Shown: one piece after another, positions 42,980 to 54,151 of the stretch
How the letters are laid out: each line of letters begins with the position of its first letter
How positions within the stretch are numbered: the stretch's first letter is position 1
Assembly: GCF_000745185.1 (NCBI RefSeq)
Contig: NZ_JQNJ01000001.1
Coordinates: 1,573,501 to 1,637,500 of the forward strand
Direction of reading: 5' to 3'
Length of the DNA stretch: 64,000 nucleotides
Source: Muricauda sp. MAR_2010_75
Lineage (GTDB): Bacteria > Bacteroidota > Bacteroidia > Flavobacteriales > Flavobacteriaceae
Program-made: the position numbers and the translations under genes
The notes under the pieces: model-generated
Database searches by the model: none
What the model was told of the DNA's origin: nothing
What the model saw: the letters and a program-made list of their open reading frames with translations, nothing else

Positions 42980-43179
42980 TCCTTGTTCAGCTTTTTCTGT
43001 ATTTTTTTTGAGGTCATAAAAATCAGCAAGAGTACAATGGCGCACAATGAGGCCACTATCCCTATCAAAGCTACGGTACTATCCCCTTCAAAGGGATTTT
43101 CAAAATCTACCAATGTTACATTGTAGCCAATAAGAGCCAAGGCCAGAATAATAAGGATAATGCTGAATGTTTTATTCAT
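42976..43179 (-). CDS. Small two-helix membrane protein
   Basis: 67 residues with two hydrophobic helices (SIILIILALALIGYNVTLV and VALIGIVASLCAIVLLLIFM) joined by a short acidic loop, and a lysine-rich tail (SKKIQKKLNKD). No known domain recognised. It lies nine bases downstream of the MarC gene on the same strand, so the two are probably co-transcribed. Confidence 0.72.
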   Translation of the reverse strand: MNKTFSIILIILALALIGYNVTLVDFENPFEGDSTVALIGIVASLCAIVLLLIFMTSKKIQKKLNKD

Positions 43180-43188
43180 GGTATGGCT

Positions 43189-43770
43189 TTATAGATGCTC
43201 AAAGAGCTGGTTGATGTTGGCTGCAAAAAGCTTTACGGCAATGGCCAAGAGTATTACACCGAATACTTTTCTAATAATACTGAGGCCTATTTTCCCCAAG
43301 ACCCGCTCAATTTTGGCGCTTGATTTAAGCACAATATATACAAAGATAATATTTAGGATAATGGCAACAATAATGTTTTCCACATGATATTCCGCTCTAA
43401 GGGCCAAGAGTGAGGTCATGGTGCCCGCTCCGGCAATCAGTGGAAAAGCAATGGGAACTATGGAGGCACTTTCAGGCTCATCATCTTTGTAAAGGGTAAT
43501 GCCCAAGATCATTTCAATGGCCAAAAAGAAGATGATAAAGGAACCCGCCACAGCAAAAGAGTTGACATCTATACCGATTAGCGAAAGGATTCGTTCCCCA
43601 ACAAAAAGAAAGGCCACCATTATACAGGCCGCCACAATGGAAGCTTTTTCAGACTGAATATGGCCCACTTTGCTGCGCAAGGATATAATTATGGGAATAC
43701 TGCCCACAATATCAATTACCGCAAAAAGGATCATACTGGCAGTTGCAATTTCCTTAAAATTCAAATTCAT
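43189..43770 (-). CDS. MarC family integral membrane protein
   Basis: About 193 residues with six membrane helices (MILFAVIDIVGSIPIIISL, FAVAGSFIIFFLAIEMILGI, SIVPIAFPLIAGAGTMTSLL). The two SIP/AFP-L-AGAG segments are the MarC signature. Despite the name, the family has no proven role in multidrug resistance. ATG at 43770 is preferred; an in-frame ATG at 43794 would add eight residues. Confidence 0.92.
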   Translation of the reverse strand: MNLNFKEIATASMILFAVIDIVGSIPIIISLRSKVGHIQSEKASIVAACIMVAFLFVGERILSLIGIDVNSFAVAGSFIIFFLAIEMILGITLYKDDEPESASIVPIAFPLIAGAGTMTSLLALRAEYHVENIIVAIILNIIFVYIVLKSSAKIERVLGKIGLSIIRKVFGVILLAIAVKLFAANINQLFEHL

Positions 43771-43863
43771 CACGTTGCTTTTTTTGGTCTGCAAATGTAC
43801 GTCTTAAAACGACTTTTGGATGATATAAAATGTTGGGAAAACATCAATTTTTTTGTTTTGGAT

Positions 43864-43871
43864 TACCTTTG
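43864..43871 (+). promoter_or_regulatory. Likely -7 promoter element of the DUF3109 gene
   Basis: TACCTTTG is an exact TAnnTTTG match ending 20 bases before the chosen start at 43892. No clear TTG box at 17-23 bases upstream. It supports the ATG at 43892 over the in-frame ATG at 43853, which lies upstream of it. Confidence 0.4.
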
Positions 43872-43891
43872 CCCCAAAAGAAGGGAAACAG

Positions 43892-44464
43892 ATGTTTCAG
43901 ATAGGTAAAACCATAGTGTCCGAAGAGATTCTGGAAAACGATTTTGTATGCAACCTAAATGCGTGCAAAGGTGCTTGTTGTGTTGGAGGGGAATATGGGG
44001 CACCAGTGGAGGATGCGGAAACCGATATTCTGATAAATATTTACGAAAAAGTAAAGCCCTATCTAAGGCCTGAGGGCATTAAGGCCATTGAAGAGCAAGG
44101 GACTTTTGTAAAAGGGGAAGATGGAGAATGGGAAACCCCCTTGGTAAAAAACAGTGAATGTGCCTACGTTATTTTTTCTGAGGAAGGGATCGCCAAATGT
44201 GGCATTGAAGCCGCTTGGGAAGATGGTGCGGTAAAATGGCGAAAGCCCGTTTCTTGCCACCTGTATCCTGTCCGTACCCGTGAATATTCCGAGTTTACCG
44301 CGGTAAACTACCATAAATGGGAAATATGTGATCCTGCTTGTAGTTTGGGAAAAGAATTAAAAGTGCCCGTTTACAAGTTTGTAAAAGACGCCCTAATTCG
44401 GAAATTTGGAAAGAAATGGTACGAAGAATTGGAGGAAGTGGCCGTGGGCCATGCTAAATCGTAG
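43892..44464 (+). CDS. DUF3109 family cysteine-rich protein
   Basis: About 190 residues. ATG at 43892 (MFQIGKTIVSEEIL) is the usual N-terminus for this family. Eight or so conserved cysteines are visible: VCNLNACKGACCVGGEYGAP near the start, then ECAYVIF, KCGIEAAW, PVSCHLYPVRT and EICDPACSLG. The pattern suggests bound zinc or an iron-sulfur cluster, related to YkgJ-like proteins. Function unknown. It converges with the kinase gene and overlaps it by 11 bases. Confidence 0.9.
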   Translation: MFQIGKTIVSEEILENDFVCNLNACKGACCVGGEYGAPVEDAETDILINIYEKVKPYLRPEGIKAIEEQGTFVKGEDGEWETPLVKNSECAYVIFSEEGIAKCGIEAAWEDGAVKWRKPVSCHLYPVRTREYSEFTAVNYHKWEICDPACSLGKELKVPVYKFVKDALIRKFGKKWYEELEEVAVGHAKS

Positions 44465-45749
44465 GGATGTCCAAGATCACCTTGGTTCCCTTTGGGCTGC
44501 CATCCGTATTGAACAAGTCCACAATATCCACATCAAATTTGTTCTGGTAATCTTTTGAGAAATTGGCCAATCGCTCCTTGGTGATTCGGATACCGACTGA
44601 TTTTCGTTTCAGCACTCTGTTTTCTTTATTGGCCTCGGCGGCTCCCCTACCCACACCATTGTCCTCAATTTCAATGGAAACGTGGTTCTGACTCTTTCGT
44701 TTTACGTTCAAATGAATCATCTTCTTGCCTTCCTTGGGAGAAAGTCCATGCCAAAGGGAATTTTCAAGGAAGGGCTGTAAGGCCAATGAAGGGATTTTTA
44801 TATTGGAGGGGCAGAGATTTTCATCCACAGTGATTTTAAAATCGATTTCATTGGAAAACCGGATGTTCTCAATGTTCATATACAATTCAATGGTCTCCAG
44901 TTCTTCCGCCAAGGTAATTTCCCGCTGGGACGAAGCCTCCAGTATTTTACGCACCAACTTTGAAAATTTGTTCAGATAGTGAACTGCATTTTTTTGCTCA
45001 TTGTTGATGATGTAAAGCTTGATGGAGTTCAATGAGTTGAACAAAAAATGGGGGTTCATCTGGCTGCGGAGCATGTTTTGTTCCAAGGAAAGCACCCTTT
45101 TTTCATTCTTGTTTTGGTACTGTCGGTACAAAATGTAAAGAATGGAGGCCACCAGCCCCACAATCAAGGCACTTACCAATAAGGTGGTCTGGTTTTTCTT
45201 TAATCGTAGGCGCACAATTTCATTTTCTTTGGCCAGAACAGAGATTTGGTTGTTCTTTTTTTCTGCCTCATATCGTACAATAACATCGTTCATGTACCTT
45301 AAATTGGTAGCACTGGAGATTTCCTTTTCAAACTCAGAAGCCTTTTTAAAATAGGCGTAAGCCTCTTTAAAATTTCCCCTTTCCCGTTCAAGGTCGGAAA
45401 GCTTTTGGTATCCGGCAACAACATTACTGGGCATGTTGTGGTTTTGAGCCATTTCCAATCCTTCTTGGATAAACTGATCAGCCTTGTCAAACTCTCCTAC
45501 TTTTGTATACGCCCAACCTGTATTTATAAAAATGGACGAGGTAATAAAAAAATCACCTATATCTTTGGATTCTTTATGAAGGGGTTCCAGCAGCACAAGT
45601 GCGGCATAGGGCATATCCTGTTTTAAATAGACCTGGGCCAAGCTGTTCTTGCAGATGACACGCCCATAATCTGAACCGATTTCCTCATTATAGGCCAGGG
45701 ATTTCCGGTAGTTTTCCAATGCACCCTCCAAATCTCCCTTTTGCTCCAA
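44454..45749 (-). pseudogene. LytS-type sensor kinase, C-terminal part after a frameshift
   Basis: This is the downstream part of a gene whose upstream part is at 45623-46420. It opens at EQKGDLEGALENYRKSLAYN in the middle of a TPR, continues through more TPRs, a membrane helix (TTLLVSALIVGLVASILYIL) and a complete His_kinase/HATPase domain: MNPHFLFNSLNSIKLYIINN with the phospho-accepting His, LQPFLENSLWHGLSPKEG (N box) and DNGVGRGAAEAN (G box). The kinase core is intact, so a fragment could be active if translated on its own. The first codon of the open frame (TTG at 45749) is not a convincing start. The partner regulator is at 46436. Confidence 0.85.
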
Positions 45750-46420
45750 ACAATCCCAATGTTTTGGTGGTTTATGGCAAGCCCCAATTTGTTGCCCAGT
45801 TCTTCTTCCAGCTTCAGGGCTCTCTTAAACTGCATGATGGCCAAATCATGCTGTTCCAAGGTTTGATATAGGTTTCCAATACTGTTCAAGGACACATTGA
45901 TGCTCCTTTTGATATGATGTGATGGGTTTTCAACCTCCTCTGCTATTTCCAAGGCTTTTTGGTTGTAGTCCAATGCAGTTTTAATGGCATCGGTGCGGCG
46001 ATAAACCACCCCTAGCATATTCAAGCTAAGAACCTTTAGTTCTGTGTTGTTTGCCTTTTCCGAAAGTTCAAGGGCCTGTTCATGAAGGTCGGCAGCTTTT
46101 TTAAATTGGGAAATGTTCCTGTATTTTGTTCCTAGTTGGTCTAGCGCATAAGCTTCCCCTTCCAAATAGTTGTTTTCTCTGGCCAGATTGGCAAAATAGC
46201 GTAGAAGGGTGGTATCCTGTTTTTCTTCCTTGAGTTCGGTGTCCAGGGAGAGATAGGTTTTGGGCATGAGTTCAACCAATCGCTCGGCCTTTTCTTTAAA
46301 ATCATCTGGGATTTCTTGGGCACGGGCCATGTGAAAGCCAAGCAATACCAGTAGTGGGCATAAGATTGCCTTTCGCAGTGGACCTAGGTTTTTGATGTGT
46401 TTGATCTCAATTGTAAGCAC
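45623..46420 (-). pseudogene. LytS-type sensor kinase, N-terminal TPR part before a frameshift
   Basis: Starts with a signal sequence (ILCPLLVLLGFHMARAQ), then tandem TPRs (YALDQLGTKYRNISQFKKAA, LNMLGVVYRRTDAIKTALDY, LNSIGNLYQTLEQHDLAIMQ). After NHQNIGIV at about 45750 the frame leaves the TPR pattern and reads WSKREIWRVHW. In the other frame it continues as LEQKGDLEGALENYR, exactly completing the repeat. One extra T in the coding-strand GTTTGG would restore one reading frame of about 650 residues. Either a real one-base deletion or a sequencing error. Confidence 0.85.
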
Positions 46421-46435
46421 AGGTATATTGGGACG

Positions 46436-47170
46436 TTATAACATATCCAGAAAGTCGGATTTTTTTTGCCTCGAGACTGGGATTTTATGATTGGATTCCA
46501 ACACAACGTATCCATCGGTCTTTAGGAATTCCTTTATTTTGTTCAGGTTGATGATGTAGGAGTTGTGAATCCTAAAAAAGCTATTGTCTGGCAAGAGGGT
46601 ATTTACTTCCTTTAACTTTTTGGTAAGTAATATTTTTTGACCATCGCTCAGGAAAATGGTACTGTAATTCCCATCAGATTCAGCATAAAGAATATCATCA
46701 CTGTTCAGGAACACCAATTTTCCATCGGTATTTATCGTGATTTTTTTGCTGTGCGATTCAGCATTGAAATTCAACAATATTTTCTCTAACCGATTCACGG
46801 TCAAATTCTTGGCGTTATATTTTTTTATCTTGGCAATGGTCAGCTCAAGGTCATCGGTGTCAATGGGTTTGAGCAAATAATCAATGGCCTCATTCTTTAA
46901 GGCCTGAAGGGCGTATTGGTTGTATGCTGTGGTGATGACCACCGGAAAATCCTTGTTCTTTAAGTTTTTGATGAACTGGAAACCGTCCATGGCTGGCATT
47001 TCTATATCCAAGAAGAGACAGTCCGGAGTATTTTGTTCCAGATAGTCCAAGGCCTCGTGCGCATCGGTGAACGATGCAATAATGTCCACCTCATCGCTCA
47101 AGTTGGTCAACTCCCAACTCAAACTCTGCAATGCCTTGATTTCGTCATCTACAATAACCGCTTCTAGCAT
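46436..47170 (-). CDS. LytTR response regulator
   Basis: 244 residues: receiver domain with acidic pocket Asp8-Asp9, phospho-acceptor Asp55 (CLFLDIEMPAMDG), Thr80-Thr81 and Lys101 (LLKPIDTDDL), then a LytTR DNA-binding domain at about 140-240 (SDDILYAESDGNYSTIFLSD, FRIHNSYIINLNKIKEF). It is 15 bases upstream of the frameshifted LytS-type kinase on the same strand and is clearly its partner. Target genes are unknown. Confidence 0.94.
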   Translation of the reverse strand: MLEAVIVDDEIKALQSLSWELTNLSDEVDIIASFTDAHEALDYLEQNTPDCLFLDIEMPAMDGFQFIKNLKNKDFPVVITTAYNQYALQALKNEAIDYLLKPIDTDDLELTIAKIKKYNAKNLTVNRLEKILLNFNAESHSKKITINTDGKLVFLNSDDILYAESDGNYSTIFLSDGQKILLTKKLKEVNTLLPDNSFFRIHNSYIINLNKIKEFLKTDGYVVLESNHKIPVSRQKKSDFLDML

Positions 47171-47467
47171 ATAAACAATAATAGGTATTTCAAATTTAGG
47201 ATTATTCTGTTTATGCTTCTTAAAATTATGTGTTGATGGACTAGTAACACGTATAACTGGTCAAAAATGCCAAATCAAGTGAAAAGGGCTTCCTTTTTTG
47301 ATGAACGCCCCCTTATTGAGGGCAAAAAGGAATCTCAATGCTCAAAATCAACAAACCAATTATACAAAAAAGCCAACCGTTTATACATACCAACAAGGAT
47401 ACAGGACCATTGTTATCTATCTTGGCACTGTCAAAAATTGGGGTATTCATCTAATATCAAAATTAAT

Positions 47468-47602
47468 ATGAAAAAGTGTTTTGTACTGTTCATAATTTTA
47501 ATAATGGCCTTGATTTTTGCCGCTGTTTCGGAAAGTAAGGACATGGAAGTACAGCAAAATTGGGATAGTGTGGCCGTAGAGGGCCACCATGCTCCCAGAT
47601 AA
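47468..47602 (+). CDS. Possible 44-residue exported peptide
   Basis: ATG at 47468 opens MKKCFVLFIILIMALIFAAV followed by SES and a mature tail of about 20 residues (KDMEVQQNWDSVAVEGHHAP then R and stop). The first 22 residues are a textbook signal peptide. It stands alone, divergent from the LytTR/LytS system and 14 bases before the structured block at 47617. The same frame extends upstream to 47267 with no sign of coding. No homology can be claimed. The 300 bases before it (47171-47467) show nothing else. A chance frame is possible. Confidence 0.4.
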   Translation: MKKCFVLFIILIMALIFAAVSESKDMEVQQNWDSVAVEGHHAPR

Positions 47603-47616
47603 ACGTTCATAAATAT

Positions 47617-47792
47617 TATTACCAATAAATAGTACGGCCAAAGCAACCAATTCTCTTGATTATAGAAACCGCTTGCAAAGAAAAATCTTCAGAGGAACCT
47701 TGGTTTAATGTTTGATTTTGGGTTTCGGGGGAACTACCTGGAATTAAATGGATCCAATGGCATAACCTGAAGAGGCCGTACGTTTGGTAATA
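47617..47792 (+). ncRNA. Candidate structured RNA upstream of nrdBA
   Basis: Nested helices, all read from the sequence: TATTACCAA (47617-47625) with TTGGTAATA (47784-47792); GTACGGCC (47632-47639) with GGCCGTAC (47774-47781); TCTTCAG (47686-47692) with CTGAAGA (47767-47773); CCTTGG (47698-47703) with CCAATGG (47754-47760, one bulge); TTTAAT (47704-47709) with ATTAAA (47743-47748); and an apical GGTTTC/GAA..ACC hairpin with a GGGG loop (47721-47738). A 46-base side arm (47640-47685) can form its own hairpin. An intrinsic terminator follows at 47831. No coding frame covers it. Length and rod shape resemble 6S RNA, but class is not established; a leader/attenuator for nrdB is the main alternative. 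Confidence 0.55.
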
Positions 47793-47830
47793 TCATTGAA
47801 TTATGGCACTAACCGCAGTTCATAAGCAGT

Positions 47831-47873
47831 AAGACCAATTAGTATGTTGCAATATACTTTTTGGTCTTTTTTT
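47831..47873 (+). terminator. Intrinsic terminator downstream of the structured RNA
   Basis: AAGACCAA (47831-47838) pairs with TTGGTCTT (47861-47868), with an inner AGTAT/ATACT stem (47841-47845 and 47854-47858), followed by an uninterrupted T-run to 47873. It faces plus-strand transcription although no gene over 45 codons ends nearby, so it implies a short transcript from this region. Confidence 0.85.
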
Positions 47874-47965
47874 GTTTGTGGAAAATTCCAACGTAAAAGT
47901 TATCAAAGGACAGGTTTGGCCGAGGCCAGCAAGGGTAACCGCCACACTAGATTTCAACAGTCAGT

Positions 47966-47982
47966 GTTAAAAACTTTAACCC
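47966..47982. promoter_or_regulatory. TGTTAA-N5-TTAACC element upstream of nrdB
   Basis: An imperfect inverted pair of TTAAC half-sites 105 bases before nrdB. A further TTAACA lies at 48075-48080, eight bases before the start. The same hexamer forms a three-copy array upstream of nrdA (49125-49151). Possible shared operator; not a match to the classical NrdR box. Confidence 0.3.
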
Positions 47983-48087
47983 CGTTTCGCGAATACATAC
48001 TTTACAATCTACCAACAATTTTGAATCTTTGTTAGTCCCTATTCACATGGAAATCTCCTTCCAGATTGTAAATTTTAACAAGCGATT

Positions 48088-49074
48088 ATGTCAGAAGCAA
48101 TTGAGCCCATATTACAAGAAAACAAAGATAGATTTGTAATTTTTCCCATTAAACACCACGATTTGTGGGATTGGTATAAGAAGCAAGAGGCTTGTTTTTG
48201 GACTGCCGAGGAAATCGATCTGCATCAGGATTTATCGGATTGGAACACCAAGTTGAACGATGACGAACGTTACTTCATCAAACATATTTTGGCCTTTTTT
48301 GCCGCTTCGGATGGAATTGTAAATGAAAATCTGGCCGAAAACTTTGTCAATGAAGTTCAGTACTCTGAGGCCAAATTCTTCTACGGTTTCCAAATTATGA
48401 TGGAGAACATCCACTCTGAAACCTACTCATTGCTCATAGACACCTATGTGAAGGAGGAAAAGGAAAAGAGTGTGCTCTTCAAGGCCATTGAAAATTTTCC
48501 TGCCATTAAAAAGAAAGCTGATTGGGCCTTAAAATGGATAGAATCACCAAGTTTCGCCGAAAGATTGATTGCCTTTGCCGCAGTGGAAGGGATTTTCTTC
48601 TCCGGCGCCTTCTGTTCCATCTTTTGGCTGAAGAAAAGAGGATTGATGCCTGGACTCACGTTTTCCAATGAGTTGATTTCACGGGACGAAGGAATGCATT
48701 GCGATTATGCTGTGCACTTGCACAACAACCATTTGCAAAACAAAGTGTCCAAGGAGCGTATCAAGGAAATTATAGTTGATGCATTGAACATAGAAAGAGA
48801 GTTCATTACAGAGTCACTTCCCGTGAGCCTCATTGGAATGAACGCCAAATTAATGACCCAATACCTGGAGTTTGTAACTGACCGATTGTTGGTTGAGTTG
48901 CAATGCGAGAAAGTGTACAATGCCACCAATCCATTTGATTTTATGGATATGATTTCCCTCCAAGGGAAGACCAATTTCTTTGAAAAACGCGTGTCTGAAT
49001 ATCAAAAGGCCGGTGTTTTGAACAAGGAGAAAGATTCTGATTCGCAAAAAATCAGTTTCGACGCAGATTTTTAA
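48088..49074 (+). CDS. nrdB: Ribonucleotide reductase class Ia, beta subunit
   Basis: 328 residues; generates the tyrosyl radical needed for ribonucleotide reduction. The radical Tyr is Tyr99 in [20 protein letters not shown], the form found in eukaryotic R2 and in Bacteroidota rather than the E. coli one. Diiron ligands lie in [10 protein letters not shown] (E region), ENIHSE and [14 protein letters not shown]. The gene precedes nrdA by 119 bases. The region upstream holds the structured RNA candidate, its terminator and TTAACA repeats. Confidence 0.96.
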
Positions 49075-49124
49075 GTAACCAAATTGTTTGTTGACTTCCG
49101 ATAGCCCCGGAAGTTTTCATGCAC

Positions 49125-49153
49125 TTAACACAAAATGTTAAATTTTTAACATT
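49125..49153. promoter_or_regulatory. TTAACA/TGTTAA array upstream of nrdA
   Basis: Three half-sites in alternating orientation: TTAACA (49125-49130), TGTTAA (49136-49141), TTAACA (49146-49151). The last two form AATGTTAA-ATTT-TTAACATT (49134-49153), a perfect 8-bp inverted repeat 40 bases before the nrdA start. Candidate operator or hairpin in the nrdB-nrdA spacer. Confidence 0.4.
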
Positions 49154-49193
49154 CAATAAGAACCAACAATAACCCTAAAATATTCGTAGCGCC

Positions 49194-51665
49194 ATGTATG
49201 TAGTAAAAAGAGATGGAAGAAAGGAGCCGATCATGTTCGACAAGATTACGGCCCGAGTTAGAAAACTTTGTTATGGACTCAATCCCCTGGTGGACCCGGT
49301 AAAGGTGGCCATGCGGGTTATTGAGGGATTGTACGATGGGGTTACCACATCCGAGCTGGATAATTTGGCAGCCGAAATCGCAGCCACCATGACCACTACC
49401 CATCCCGATTATGCAAAATTGGCGGCGCGTATCTCCGTTTCCAACCTGCACAAAAACACAAAAAAATCCTTCTCCGAAACGATGAAGGACCTCTACGAAT
49501 ATGTGAATCCAAGAACCGGTAAAAAAGCACCACTGCTTTCTGATGAGGTGTACAAGGTGGTTTCCGAGAATGCCGAAACCTTGGATTCTACCATTATTTA
49601 CAACCGGGATTTTGGCTACGATTATTTCGGTTTTAAAACCTTGGAACGTTCCTATTTGCTTAAAATCAATGGCAAAATTGCGGAGCGTCCCCAGCACATG
49701 CTCATGCGTGTGGCCGTTGGTATCCATTTGAATGACATGGAATCTGCCATAGAGACTTATGAGTTGATGTCCAAAAAGTTCTTCACTCATGCTACACCCA
49801 CACTCTTCAACTCAGGAACACCAAAACCACAGATGTCTTCCTGTTTCCTGCTTGCGATGAAGGATGACAGTATCGATGGGATCTACGACACCTTGAAGCA
49901 AACCGCCAAAATTTCCCAATCTGCAGGAGGAATTGGACTTTCAATCCACAACATAAGAGCAACAGGTTCCTACATCGCAGGAACCAATGGAACGTCAAAT
50001 GGAATTGTGCCCATGCTTCGCGTTTATAATGACACAGCGCGCTATGTGGACCAAGGTGGTGGAAAAAGAAAAGGGAGCTTCGCCATTTATGTGGAGCCTT
50101 GGCATGCTGATATTTTCGACTTTTTGGATTTGAAGAAAAACCACGGTAAAGAGGAAATGCGCGCCCGCGATTTGTTCTACGCCATGTGGATTCCGGACTT
50201 GTTTATGAAACGGGTAGAAGCCGATGGCGAATGGACCTTGATGTGCCCCAATGAATGCCCAGGACTGTTCAGCAACCACAGTGATGAGTTTGAAAAGTTG
50301 TATACTCAGTATGAAGCTGAGGGAAAAGGACGCAAGACCATTAAAGCACGCGATCTTTGGGAGAAAATATTGGAGTCACAGATAGAGACGGGAACCCCAT
50401 ATATGCTCTACAAGGATGCAGCCAACCGCAAAAGCAACCAAAAGAACTTGGGTACCATCCGTTCTTCCAATTTGTGTACTGAAATCTTGGAATACACTTC
50501 TCCCGATGAGGTGGCGGTATGTAACTTAGCCTCCATTGCGTTACCCATGTTCATCAAAAATGGGGAATTTGACCACAAGGAACTTTTCCGGGTAACAAAG
50601 CGAGTGACCAAAAACCTGAACAAGGTAATTGACCGTAATTTCTATCCGGTGGAAGAAGCCAGAAACTCCAACATGAGGCACCGACCTATTGGTCTGGGGG
50701 TGCAGGGATTGGCCGATACTTTCATTATGTTGCGCATGCCTTTCACGAGTGATGAGGCCAAAAAATTGAACCAGGATATTTTTGAGACCCTATATTATGC
50801 TGCGGTTACCGCTTCCATGGAAATGGCCAAGGAGGAAGGAACCTATTCCAGCTATGAGGGATCGCCCATTTCAAAAGGAGAATTTCAGCACAATCTTTGG
50901 GGTATCAAAGACCAAGAACTTTCCGGAAGATGGGATTGGGAAAAACTCAGAAAGGAAGTAAAAAAGAACGGGGTCAGGAACTCTTTGTTGGTCGCTCCAA
51001 TGCCAACTGCTTCCACGTCACAGATTTTGGGGAACAATGAATGTTTTGAGCCTTATACTTCCAACATTTATACCCGTAGGGTATTGTCTGGAGAGTTCAT
51101 TGTAGTGAACAAACACCTTTTGGAAGATTTGGTCCGATTGGGCCTATGGAACGAAAACCTGAAACAAGAGTTGATGCGTGCCAACGGTTCCATTCAACAT
51201 ATCGATGTGATTCCGCAGGAAATCAAAGAACTCTACAAGACGGTTTGGGAGCTCAGTATGAAGGACATCATTGATATGAGCCGTCAACGGGGTTATTTCA
51301 TAGATCAAAGCCAATCGTTGAACCTCTTTATGGAAAATGCCAACTATTCCAAGCTTACATCGATGCATTTCTATGCTTGGAAGAGTGGTCTCAAAACAGG
51401 TATGTATTACCTCAGGACCAAGGCAGCAGTGGACGCCATTAAATTTACTTTGGATAATTCCAAAAAGAAAGAAGAGCCTGTTGCTGTTGTGGTGGAATCT
51501 GAAATAACATCGGCAACTAAAGCTGAGGCTTTAAAAGTAGAAGCTACAGATGCCAGTCAACAAGAAGTGGACATACAACCTATGACGCCAGAAGAGATGA
51601 AAGAGATGATCGCACGCGCCAAGGAAGGTCAAGCAGACGATGATTGCTTGATGTGCGGATCGTAG
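49194..51665 (+). CDS. nrdA: Ribonucleotide reductase class Ia, alpha subunit
   Basis: 823 residues; reduces ribonucleoside diphosphates to deoxyribonucleotides. An N-terminal ATP-cone ([20 protein letters not shown] to about residue 90) gives allosteric activity control. Active-site residues: redox pair Cys217 ([10 protein letters not shown]) and Cys443 ([11 protein letters not shown]), thiyl radical Cys428 with Asn426 and Glu430 (NLCTE). The tail ends DDDCLMCGS, whose Cys pair re-reduces the active site. An acidic, alanine-rich linker of about 50 residues precedes this tail. Eukaryote-like R1, matching the R2 type at 48088. Confidence 0.97.
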
Positions 51666-51711
51666 CTTGTACTGAGCTTTATCAGTATGTGTGATAGTGT
51701 TTATTGATTAG

Positions 51712-51757
51712 TACCTCGGAGAACGTTCACCCCACTTAGAACCATCCGAGGTATTTT
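51712..51757 (+). terminator. Probable terminator after nrdA
   Basis: TACCTCGGA (51712-51720) pairs perfectly with TCCGAGGTA (51745-51753), then TTTTC. The 24-base loop is long, so efficiency is uncertain. Position between nrdA and the convergent gene at 51780 fits. Confidence 0.6.
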
Positions 51758-51779
51758 CATTTCAAAATGGAGAACAAAA

Positions 51780-52433
51780 TTACAGTGACCAAGCTTTGCC
51801 GTCGGTCAATGTAGTTACATCGTCACATGGAATGTATTCACCTGGAATAGGTGCATAGGCCAATACCTCTTCCCCTACATATTCAGAATTTTTATAAGCA
51901 AAAATGGCCATATCCCTTAAATCGTTGGCAAATGAAAAACGGGCAATGTCATCATCAATATCGCCTTGGCCACCATTCATTACAGCTTCCATATAGCTGT
52001 CAATGGCCTCTGTATGGATTTCTTCTTGCTCCGGTGTGCGTTTGGCCAAGTATGTCTTTAAAACAGGCTCTATATCGGCAGCTTCCACATCTGTTAAAGA
52101 CTGTTTGCCAGAATCGGATAGGACCTTGTCAAAAAATTTGTCCATTCTCAACTTTACAAAATCCAATTGCTCTTTAGGTAATACCTCATCCATAAAAGAA
52201 TCAAAGAACACATGAAGGTTCATTTCTGTTGCAGAGGGCGTATCCGTTTTTGGTAAGATGATATCCAAGGTCTGTGCAAGTGCATATCCTTGGTCTTGGC
52301 TCAAAAAGGAAGGCACCCATTCTGCATACGCAGGTTTATCCTTACAGCTTTGGAGTAATCCCAATAGTGTTGGAGTGGCCACGGCATATCCAAAGGCCAT
52401 CCCCATATTTTTAAGTGCAGATCTTCTTTCCAT
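51780..52433 (-). CDS. Gluconate 2-dehydrogenase subunit 3 family protein
   Basis: 217 residues, small partner subunit of membrane-bound FAD sugar dehydrogenases. It begins with an export signal of Tat style (MERRSALKNMGMAFGYAVAT) and a Cys near residue 30 (LLQSCKDK) that could be a lipobox. The body matches the family: LAQTLDIILPKTDTPSATEM, VHVFFD-like HVFFDSFMDEVLP and FAYKNSEYVGEEVLAYAPIP. The partner GMC gene ends at the base where this gene begins (TAATG overlap), so the two are translated together and the signal here probably carries the catalytic subunit out. Confidence 0.92.
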   Translation of the reverse strand: MERRSALKNMGMAFGYAVATPTLLGLLQSCKDKPAYAEWVPSFLSQDQGYALAQTLDIILPKTDTPSATEMNLHVFFDSFMDEVLPKEQLDFVKLRMDKFFDKVLSDSGKQSLTDVEAADIEPVLKTYLAKRTPEQEEIHTEAIDSYMEAVMNGGQGDIDDDIARFSFANDLRDMAIFAYKNSEYVGEEVLAYAPIPGEYIPCDDVTTLTDGKAWSL

Positions 52434-54151
52434 TATATATTTCCTTTTTTAAGTTCTTGAGCGGCATGGTTTGCAGCTCTTGCAGTAAATGCCATATAGG
52501 TCAATGAAGGATTCACGCAGCTCGCAGATGTCATGAAAGCTCCATCAGTAACATAGACATTTTTACAGGCATGAACCTGATTGTACCCATTCAATACAGA
52601 GGTTTTTGGATCACGTCCCATACGAGCGGTTCCCATTTCGTGGATGCCAAGTCCTAAAGCTCCGGGGTTATCATAAGGTTCAACATCCCTAAGTCCAGCT
52701 TTGGTAAGCATTTCCACGGCCTGTTCTTTCATGTCTTCTCTCATGTTCCACTCGTTTTCCTTGAACTCAGCATCAAAAGTAACCGTAGGTAAGCCCCATT
52801 GATCCAATTTATCATAATCCATCGTCATTCGGTTATCTTCATAAGGTAGCACCTCGCCAAATCCACCCATACCAAAAGACCAGCCTCCTGGTTTAAGAAT
52901 AGCTTCTTTTAGGTCTTTTCCATACGAAAGTTCAGCTACGGTTTCTTCCCAGTTGTCCCTTCCGGCACCACCTTGATAGCCATACCCTCTAATAAACCTG
53001 TCGGTATTGGAACTACCACCCAAGTTTCTAAATCGAGGAACATAGACCCCATTGGGTTTTCTTCCCTTATAATATTTGTCGTCAAAGCCATCAAACTTAC
53101 CTGAAGCACCAACACCTAAATGATGGTCCATGATGTTTCTTCCCAATTGGTCGGAGTCGTTACCCAATCCATTTTCAAAGCGATCAGATTTGGATTGCAT
53201 CAATATGGAAGTTGAAGCTAGGGCAGAGGCGCAAAGGAAAATTACCTTGGCCTTGAACTCAAATTCTTCTTTGGTCTCACGGTCAATGACTTTTACCCCA
53301 GTTGCTTTTTTGGTATTTGGATCATAAATTACTTCATGAACAATGGAATCTGGGCGCAATGTCATATTCCCGGTTCTTTCCGCAGCAGGTAAGGTAGAGG
53401 AAACGCTACTGAAGTAGGCTCCAAAAGGACATCCTCTGATACAACGGTTCCTAAACTGGCAACGCACACGTCCGTCACCATCAAATTGTTTGTCACTATT
53501 GATGTGGGCCACTCTTCCTGCAGTAATCACGCGACCATCAAAATGCTCGGCCACTTTTTCCTTTACATGGTTCTCCACACAGTTGAGTTCCATCATGGGT
53601 TCAAAAATACCATCCGGAAGTTGGGGGAGTCCCAAAGTTTCACCGGTAACTCCAATATAACTCTCAACCTTGTCATACCAAGGGGCAATATCTTTATAGC
53701 GAACTGGCCAATCCACGGCAATACCATCATTTTTATTGGCACCAAAATCAATATCACTCCAGCGGTAGCTATGACGACCCCACATAATGGAACGTCCACC
53801 TACATGGTAGCCGCGCATCCAATCAAATCGTTTTGTTTCATTATAAGGATGGTCAATATCATCCACAAACCAAAAATTGTGTGGTGCTTTCACCGTATAT
53901 CCAGTTCTGGCCTGTTTTTCTTGTCTGGCCGCTTTTTCTCTTGGCAATTCACCATTATGGGGGAAATCCCAAGGGTCTGAATTAGCTGTAGGATAGTCTT
54001 CTCTGTGTTTTACCATGGGACCACGTTCCAAGACGAGGGTCTTTAGGCCGTTCTCACATAGCTCCTTTGCAGCCCAACCACCACTAATGCCTGTTCCTAC
54101 TACAATGGCATCATATGATTCCTGCTCCTCGTTGTAATAAAATTTACTCAT
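52433..54151 (-). CDS. GMC family FAD oxidoreductase (sugar dehydrogenase catalytic subunit)
   Basis: 572 residues. FAD-binding GTGISGGWAAKEL at the N-terminus; C-terminal substrate region with His in GLGIHEMGTARMG and Asn in SASCVNPSLTYMAF. A cysteine cluster Cys231-x5-Cys237-x3-Cys241 (CQFRNRCIRGCPFG) resembles the iron-sulfur site of FAD-glucose/gluconate dehydrogenases. No signal peptide of its own, consistent with co-export with the small subunit at 51780. Given the DUF1080, epimerase and Gfo/Idh/MocA neighbours, a glycoside 3-dehydrogenase is a good guess (inference). Divergent from the epimerase operon at 54288. Confidence 0.92.
   Translation of the reverse strand: MSKFYYNEEQESYDAIVVGTGISGGWAAKELCENGLKTLVLERGPMVKHREDYPTANSDPWDFPHNGELPREKAARQEKQARTGYTVKAPHNFWFVDDIDHPYNETKRFDWMRGYHVGGRSIMWGRHSYRWSDIDFGANKNDGIAVDWPVRYKDIAPWYDKVESYIGVTGETLGLPQLPDGIFEPMMELNCVENHVKEKVAEHFDGRVITAGRVAHINSDKQFDGDGRVRCQFRNRCIRGCPFGAYFSSVSSTLPAAERTGNMTLRPDSIVHEVIYDPNTKKATGVKVIDRETKEEFEFKAKVIFLCASALASTSILMQSKSDRFENGLGNDSDQLGRNIMDHHLGVGASGKFDGFDDKYYKGRKPNGVYVPRFRNLGGSSNTDRFIRGYGYQGGAGRDNWEETVAELSYGKDLKEAILKPGGWSFGMGGFGEVLPYEDNRMTMDYDKLDQWGLPTVTFDAEFKENEWNMREDMKEQAVEMLTKAGLRDVEPYDNPGALGLGIHEMGTARMGRDPKTSVLNGYNQVHACKNVYVTDGAFMTSASCVNPSLTYMAFTARAANHAAQELKKGNI

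Follow-up and report, generated by a model that had tools for sequence, protein, structure and literature searches.

The window, by which we mean the whole stretch of 64,000 nucleotides of Muricauda sp. MAR_2010_75 DNA that was analysed, contains at 47617-47792 a real conserved RNA, whose folded shape has been kept by evolution and which has a divergent LytTR response regulator gene and its histidine kinase on its upstream side. We propose that this RNA forms the 3' portion of a transcript under LytTR control and would act in trans as a regulatory RNA, a reading that we hold to be somewhat better than an even bet. The original prediction had left the choice between a new small RNA, a 6S-like RNA and a leader attenuating nrdBA; the first of these interpretations stands, and the other two are abandoned on the evidence given below. 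The features on which the argument rests are collected in Table 1.

Table 1. Features of the RNA locus in the window, with two examples of the exported protein from other loci.
Feature	Position	Strand	Basis
TPR sensor histidine kinase (His_kinase PF06580), two frames	44454..46420	-	Pfam; synteny
LytTR response regulator (Response_reg + LytTR)	46436..47170	-	Pfam; synteny
Weaker direct-repeat pair facing the lytTR gene	47229..47262	-	8 mismatches of 26
Two LytTR-type direct repeats, period 21	47354-47366 and 47375-47387	+	pattern search
Proposed promoter -7-like element TATCTTGG	47418..47425	+	read in the sequence; similar stretches in relatives by eye
44-aa MKKC-type membrane microprotein	47468..47602	+	ORF pattern after the repeats
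Structured RNA core (P1, P2, P3, P4, apical hairpin)	47617..47792	+	fold, model matches, covariation
P1, 9 bp	47617-47625/47784-47792	+	fold; double changes within the genus and in other genera
P2, 8 bp, 5' arm GTACGGCC	47632-47639/47774-47781	+	fold
P3, side hairpin, GCAA/TTGC stem (47643-47646/47673-47676)	47643..47676	+	fold
P4, 7 bp, 5' arm TCTTCAG with CTGAAGA	47686-47692/47767-47773	+	fold
Inner stem, 2+4 bp	47698-47703/47754-47760	+	fold
Long apical hairpin, 15+3 bp (47709-47726/47731-47750)	47709..47750	+	fold; seen in aligned clades
Near-invariant apical motif GGTTTCGGGGGAACTACC	47721..47738	+	sequence comparison across loci
Intrinsic terminator, seven T (stem 47831-47847/47852-47868; T run 47867-47873)	47831..47873	+	folding
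180-aa exported protein, examples	L041 -806..-251; L211 -721..-166		relative to the apical motif

Folding confirms the nested helices and the terminator at the place where they had been predicted. The free energy of the 47605-47880 segment is -80.8 kcal/mol (z -4.94) and that of the core, 47612-47800, is -52.6 (z -3.67), and in both cases none of the 200 shuffles folded equally well, which agrees with the earlier claim of a nested order beyond chance. The claim that no coding frame covers the block also holds, all three forward frames of 47610-47796 being interrupted by stops, and the longest stop-free stretch over the six frames of 30 genus members is 27 to 61 codons. Two covariance models were used: R1, built from the 30 loci of the window's genus, and R2, built from an alignment of other genera (A5) with the window's genus left out. 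R1, which was trained on the window locus among others, matches 47610-47796 and assigns the RNA to the forward strand with 170 bits against 28 on the reverse one, whereas R2, in which the genus had no part, recovers the window copy at 47616-47794 with 61.4 bits (E 5.9e-12 over its genome).

The demonstration of pairing rests on an RNAalifold run, on the pair counts in A5 and on the pair counts within the genus. A5 comprises 31 sequences, all from genera other than that of the window, and, like the 57-row alignment A4, was hand-picked from 86 representatives of 143 sequences. RNAalifold, unaided, predicted 37 pairs on A5, 16 of them with compensatory changes; these pairs, together with P4, H1 and H3, extended by hand from the same alignment, give a 55-pair structure in which 90.8% of the cells are paired, against 86.0% after shuffling and 27-44% in slid registers. 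Double changes affect 27 of these pairs (17.7 in shuffles) and 105 cells (38.6 in shuffles), and all five measures exceed all 500 shuffles. Within the genus, the counts over 30 sequences were not equalled by any of the 500 shuffles for four of the measures, the fifth being reached by 5 of the 500, and they also exceed all six slid registers. On the other hand, the P2 sites of a 147-locus table were located via their complementarity, and this table is therefore no proof of pairing. The original prediction was to be refuted by a loss of the pairings in relatives; they are kept, in favour of a real RNA. A chance fold devoid of any functional RNA would account for the good appearance that single-genome folds of intergenic DNA can have, but neither for the covariation nor for the fact that R2, derived from other genera, finds the window, and we regard its probability as negligible.

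The individual helices contribute unequally to this evidence. In P1, double changes occur at 2 of 7 pairs within the genus and at 3 of 8 in other genera. P2 shows none within the genus and 5 out of 9 pairs in other genera, the GUACGGCC/GGCCGUAC of the window being replaced elsewhere by, for example, GUACGACU/AGUCGUAC or GUGCGGUC/GAUCGCAC. P3 is paired in all 30 genus sequences, yet without double changes, while P4 has a double change at 5 of its 7 pairs within the genus, though only 81.7% of its cells are paired, and the corresponding helix of other genera has one at 4 of 6 pairs. Certainty is lowest for P3 and, in the short form, for the inner helices. The window holds this short form of about 180 nt; a longer form, of about 205-233 nt, is found in many other genera and has additional hairpins in the stretch from P2 to the apical hairpin.

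The most conserved part of the RNA is the apical motif GGTTTCGGGGGAACTACC, in which a GGU-UUC/GAA-CU-ACC stem is closed around GGGG. The exact 18-mer is present in 64 of the 65 loci found by the models, some of which are repeats of one genome, the models themselves having been trained on sequences with the 18-mer; the loci L062-L181 were fetched with the exact 18-mer, a choice that by itself makes the motif invariant among them and in many of the sequences aligned in A4 and A5. Within the genus, four loci (L257-L259, L261) carry a C to T change, and in L260 the GGU...ACC is replaced by GGA...UCC, a compensatory exchange that keeps both stem and loop. Pairing of the loop with rRNA or a conserved mRNA was considered and set aside: the window's own genome contains 11 scattered 10-mer sites, one of which is the RNA itself, and 7 of the 10 others were inspected. 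Across the genus, a 12-nt exact complement of the loop does not recur: among the 31 of 36 genomes that hold the 12-mer, it occurs only at the RNA's own position in 25, and at one or two further sites in 6. The seed would therefore be shorter or imperfect, or the partner would be a protein.

This last possibility leads to a different reading, in which the G-rich hairpin would titrate a conserved RNA-binding protein under LytTR control, according to the logic of a 6S- or CsrB-like decoy. The near-invariance of one hairpin in its sequence, and not in its pairing alone, would suit such a function, as would the want of an exact 12-nt antisense site recurring in the genus. The motif is nevertheless present as a single copy in the window, and not as a repeated array, a shorter or imperfect antisense seed could serve as well, and the protein partner is a postulated one; we therefore consider the decoy improbable.

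The distribution of the RNA is narrow. A DNA search of 59 genomes, including its own, gave good matches solely in the window's genus, with 30 loci in 30 genomes at E 5e-15 or better, the window's own among them. The covariance model added 5 of the 6 remaining genus genomes, bringing the RNA to 35 of 36, and the sole genome without it (G007) is an assembly that is 83% complete. Among 397 genomes sampled from the family, R1 was positive in 54 (32 of 237 genera) and R2 in 61 (36 of 237 genera), with a single R2 match per genome; a second, weak R1 match in G108 (E 0.006) was not repeated by R2. R2 matched 10 of the 296 genomes of an order sample, all of them within Flavobacteriaceae, and gave 6 matches among the 296 genomes of a phylum sample, 5 of them inside the family, the samples overlapping and having been searched with stricter filters that possibly missed weak relatives. 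The sixth phylum match (G823, E 0.0049) lies outside the family; in a sample of 296 genomes, chance alone would give a match of this strength, and it was discarded.

When named genomes were searched with the 18-mer of the apical motif, at least 120 stretches were retrieved. The 80 that were tabulated are labelled Allomuricauda, Flagellimonas, Muricauda, Maribacter, Zobellia, Arenibacter, Robiginitalea, Eudoraea, Croceivirga, Croceitalea, Kriegella, Pricia, Saonia, Muriicola, Flavobacterium and Cellulophaga, all of them Flavobacteriaceae genera, or are Flavobacteriaceae, Bacteroidia or Bacteroidetes bins, and two are labelled otherwise, Cytophaga sp. FL35 (L079) and an Algicola bin (L134). No viral contig contained the 18-mer. 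On present evidence, the RNA family is restricted to part of the Flavobacteriaceae.

The RNA lies next to a two-component system. Counted over 166 unique loci regardless of kinship, and with LytTR defined as a protein cluster by BLAST linkage, a divergent LytTR gene lies upstream in all 81 loci with at least 2200 nt of upstream sequence and in 125 of 134 when 1450 nt or more are required, and the TPR histidine kinase in all 65 with at least 3500 nt. The linkage to a histidine kinase and a LytTR regulator that characterises the class of LytTR-controlled RNAs is observed here, and the proposed transcription unit is preceded, again as in that class, by paired direct repeats with a spacing of about 21 bp. 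Synteny alone cannot prove that LytTR regulates the RNA. In the window, the kinase is split over two frames that meet near 45755, while it is a single frame in the relatives set beside it, which represent the six longest among the 104 ORFs of the cluster. This frame change may be a real mutation or an assembly error and, if real, signalling may be lost in this strain.

Direct repeats resembling TACCATTTATACA were found with 8 mismatches of 26 or fewer in 135 of the 142 loci (among the 166) in which the start of the regulator could be placed, the half-site consensus having been read off the same loci. Their period is 21 in all 135, where 20 to 22 was allowed, and 2.3% of the shuffles scored as well. 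In the genome, the box pattern is matched exactly by the repeats of the window and nowhere else, one more site being found at 2 mismatches. In the family sample, 91 of 397 genomes contain box patterns with at most one mismatch. Of these, 44 belong to the 61 R2-positive genomes, 17 of which therefore lack such a box, and 47 to the 336 genomes that R2 does not match, an overlap counted by hand from two tables and irrespective of the position of the box relative to the RNA locus. LytTR-like boxes are enriched with the RNA and are not exclusive to it. Repeats of this kind with a 21-base period are also seen in genomes without an R2 match, for example G095, G319 and G351. The weaker pair facing the lytTR gene is present at 8 mismatches or fewer in 104 of 142 loci, against 0.7% of shuffles, and its position suggests a possible autoregulation. 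The proposed promoter element at 47418..47425 is read as -7-like by reference to TAnnTTTG, which we take to be the relevant consensus.

Between the repeats and the RNA lies an ORF for a membrane microprotein. An ORF beginning with M[KR][KR]C and containing a hydrophobic stretch follows the repeats in 124 of 142 loci (123 in its strict form), mostly at a distance of 60-145 nt. The controls gave such an ORF in 2 of 142 cases for the reverse strand, in 2 of 142 after shuffling and in 4 of 123 downstream. The tail of the microprotein varies freely among loci. A weak match to a coronavirus Pfam family (E 0.0078, below the cut-off) and weak NCBIfam matches were taken as chance.

A second protein, of about 180 aa and predicted to be exported, is encoded in 62 of 166 loci, or in 33 of 81 if one counts those whose upstream sequence is long; it is absent from the loci of the window's genus in the microprotein survey. 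The members tested gave no match in Pfam or NCBIfam, and the AlphaFold model (pLDDT 81), an N-terminal helix followed by a beta-rich domain, found no fold match at E 0.001 or better. Its core displays a motif like DGVFGFANI..GE.PFFA..G. In 10 of the 47 loci listed (L091, L101, L104, L107, L136, L143, L153, L167, L169, L172), the stop codon of this ORF is situated 1-6 nt before P2, so that the RNA can hardly have a promoter of its own there and must, judging from this spacing, be made together with the mRNA or cut from it. In the remaining loci listed, the gap between ORF and P2 reaches up to 332 nt, and an own promoter is possible where the gap is longer. A promoter just before P1 is not claimed, because the conserved ATGA at this place could, judging by eye, be explained as an extension of P1 with TCAT and because the ORF reaches P2 in those 10 of 47 loci.

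The same spacing is what would be expected of a structured 3' UTR acting exclusively in cis, which would protect or time the mRNA of the microprotein and of the exported protein and would have no target in trans. A structured 3' end with a terminator blocks 3' exonucleases, and P1/P2 together with the terminator would do so here. The apical motif is, however, more conserved than the encoded proteins, and an invariant 18-mer would seem unnecessary for a mere stabiliser, so that we consider this explanation unlikely, though the least so among the rivals. The trans-acting reading is preferred to it because the RNA motif outlives the proteins, the 180-aa protein being missing from the genus loci surveyed and the tail of the microprotein being variable.

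Downstream of the RNA, the terminator begins 39 bases past the end of P1. A scan with a strict consensus found no terminator in the window, although this one is plain by folding, and a permissive test, which recognised an element resembling a terminator in 100 of 119 loci, is weak because 559 of 1190 shuffles (47%) pass it too. The multi-branched fold and the invariant loop could evoke a ligand-binding, riboswitch-like RNA controlling the downstream gene, such as the nrdBA leader envisaged by the original prediction, and nrdB indeed follows in 60 of the 102 loci whose downstream sequence extends over 1600 nt or more. These 60 of 102 are to be set against the constant LytTR gene upstream: the downstream genes differ between loci, the RNA has its own terminator, and a separate promoter-like block conserved in the genus precedes nrdB, so that a leader or riboswitch appears very improbable to us. 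This block, TAGATTTCAACA..TGTTAAAAACTTTG followed by TTTTTGAATCTTTG at 47945-48032 (+), between the terminator of the RNA and nrdB, looks like a promoter with an operator. It is also kept in loci where an adjacent nrdB was not found.

In the model that we favour, that of a trans-acting RNA, the histidine kinase and the LytTR regulator would most likely switch the transcript on. The regulator would bind the repeats, RNA polymerase would start near 47430, and one transcript would carry the microprotein and the RNA as far as 47873; in a fair proportion of other genera, it would also carry the exported protein. The RNA, probably made on the command of the regulator together with a tiny membrane protein, would then act in trans through its G-rich and nearly invariant apical loop, which would be the contact site for an RNA or a protein partner.

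The RNA does not belong to the families that were compared with it. Rfam 15 gave no match at the gathering score, either in the window or in 19 loci of other genera, and lenient thresholds yielded only matches below gathering, to microRNA, leader and other models, the best being a microRNA model on the terminator hairpin with 23.9 bits where 89 are needed; over 43000-53000, no match up to E 0.1 was obtained. This holds for RNAIII, presumably among Rfam's models, to which no homology was therefore detected. Nor was a prior description of the RNA found in the open-licence literature, and the option of a new small RNA is supported by the conservation, the covariation and the lack of an Rfam match. 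As for the 6S-like option, 6S-Flavo (RF01685) is, like the present RNA, a flavobacterial RNA of 100-200 nt, but its model does not match the locus at the gathering score, and the genome has a separate 6S-Flavo gene elsewhere (C1:190612-190721, 96 bits).

Flavo-1 (RF01705) does not match the locus either. It is listed for Bacteroidetes by Weinberg 2010 (PMC2864571) and is described as an orphan structured motif widespread in Flavobacteriaceae, whose matches lie sense or antisense to transcripts (PMC9723704), whereas the RNA studied here has one R2 match in each of its 61 positive genomes and stands beside one regulator. The transcriptome of F. psychrophilum reports 85 new RNAs, and among the small RNAs of Flavobacterium psychrophilum is the structured Rfp18, whose deletion lowers the mRNA of two metalloproteases (PMC9723704). 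By its description, Rfp18 resembles the present RNA as a structured flavobacterial sRNA, and it comes from another genus. In the order sample, the 10 genomes with an R2 match all lie outside g147, the most-listed genus, which we infer to be Flavobacterium.

To our knowledge, few trans-acting RNAs have been characterised in Bacteroidota. An RNA family with strong covariation, which accompanies one LytTR system at all 81 loci of sufficient length in marine genera such as Maribacter, Zobellia, Arenibacter and Muricauda/Flagellimonas, provides a defined starting point. Furthermore, the regulator, the repeats, the microprotein, the RNA and the terminator are all comprised within 46436-47873 of the window and are separable one by one. 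The ORF of the microprotein is so short that annotation may overlook it. Could this be a two-component system of Bacteroidota devoted mainly to one promoter, with the RNA as its effector, and an independently evolved counterpart of agr-RNAIII, whose transcript would hold both the microprotein and the RNA? We advance the idea tentatively, judging it rather more apt to fail than to hold.

The closest parallels are indeed to be sought among Gram-positive bacteria, from which alone such an arrangement is so far described in the portions of the literature found. RgaR and VirR are regulators of the LytTR family, and RNAIII is about 510 nt long. In S. aureus, AgrC-AgrA, with a regulator of the LytTR type, acts on divergent promoters, one product being RNAIII, a structured RNA that encodes a very short peptide (PMC3673130). 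RgaR, AgrA and VirR activate regulatory RNAs behind direct repeats, namely SpoZ, RNAIII and VR-RNA/VirT/VirU, and at the spoZ promoter the two G residues that are critical in the repeats for RgaR, G-51 and G-72, are 21 apart (PMC10602386). With RNAIII, the locus shares a LytTR-type regulator, divergent promoters, here proposed, and a structured RNA with a very short peptide ORF; it differs by its phylum, by a core of about 180-230 nt and by being known from its sequence alone. With SpoZ (RgaS-RgaR, Clostridioides difficile) and VR-RNA (VirS-VirR, Clostridium perfringens), it has in common the direct repeats upstream of the RNA, which is here placed behind a microprotein ORF and beside the regulator genes. 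The sequences, compared through Rfam only, revealed no relation, and it is by analogy that the architecture appears to be the same in kind as that of RNAIII, VR-RNA and SpoZ.
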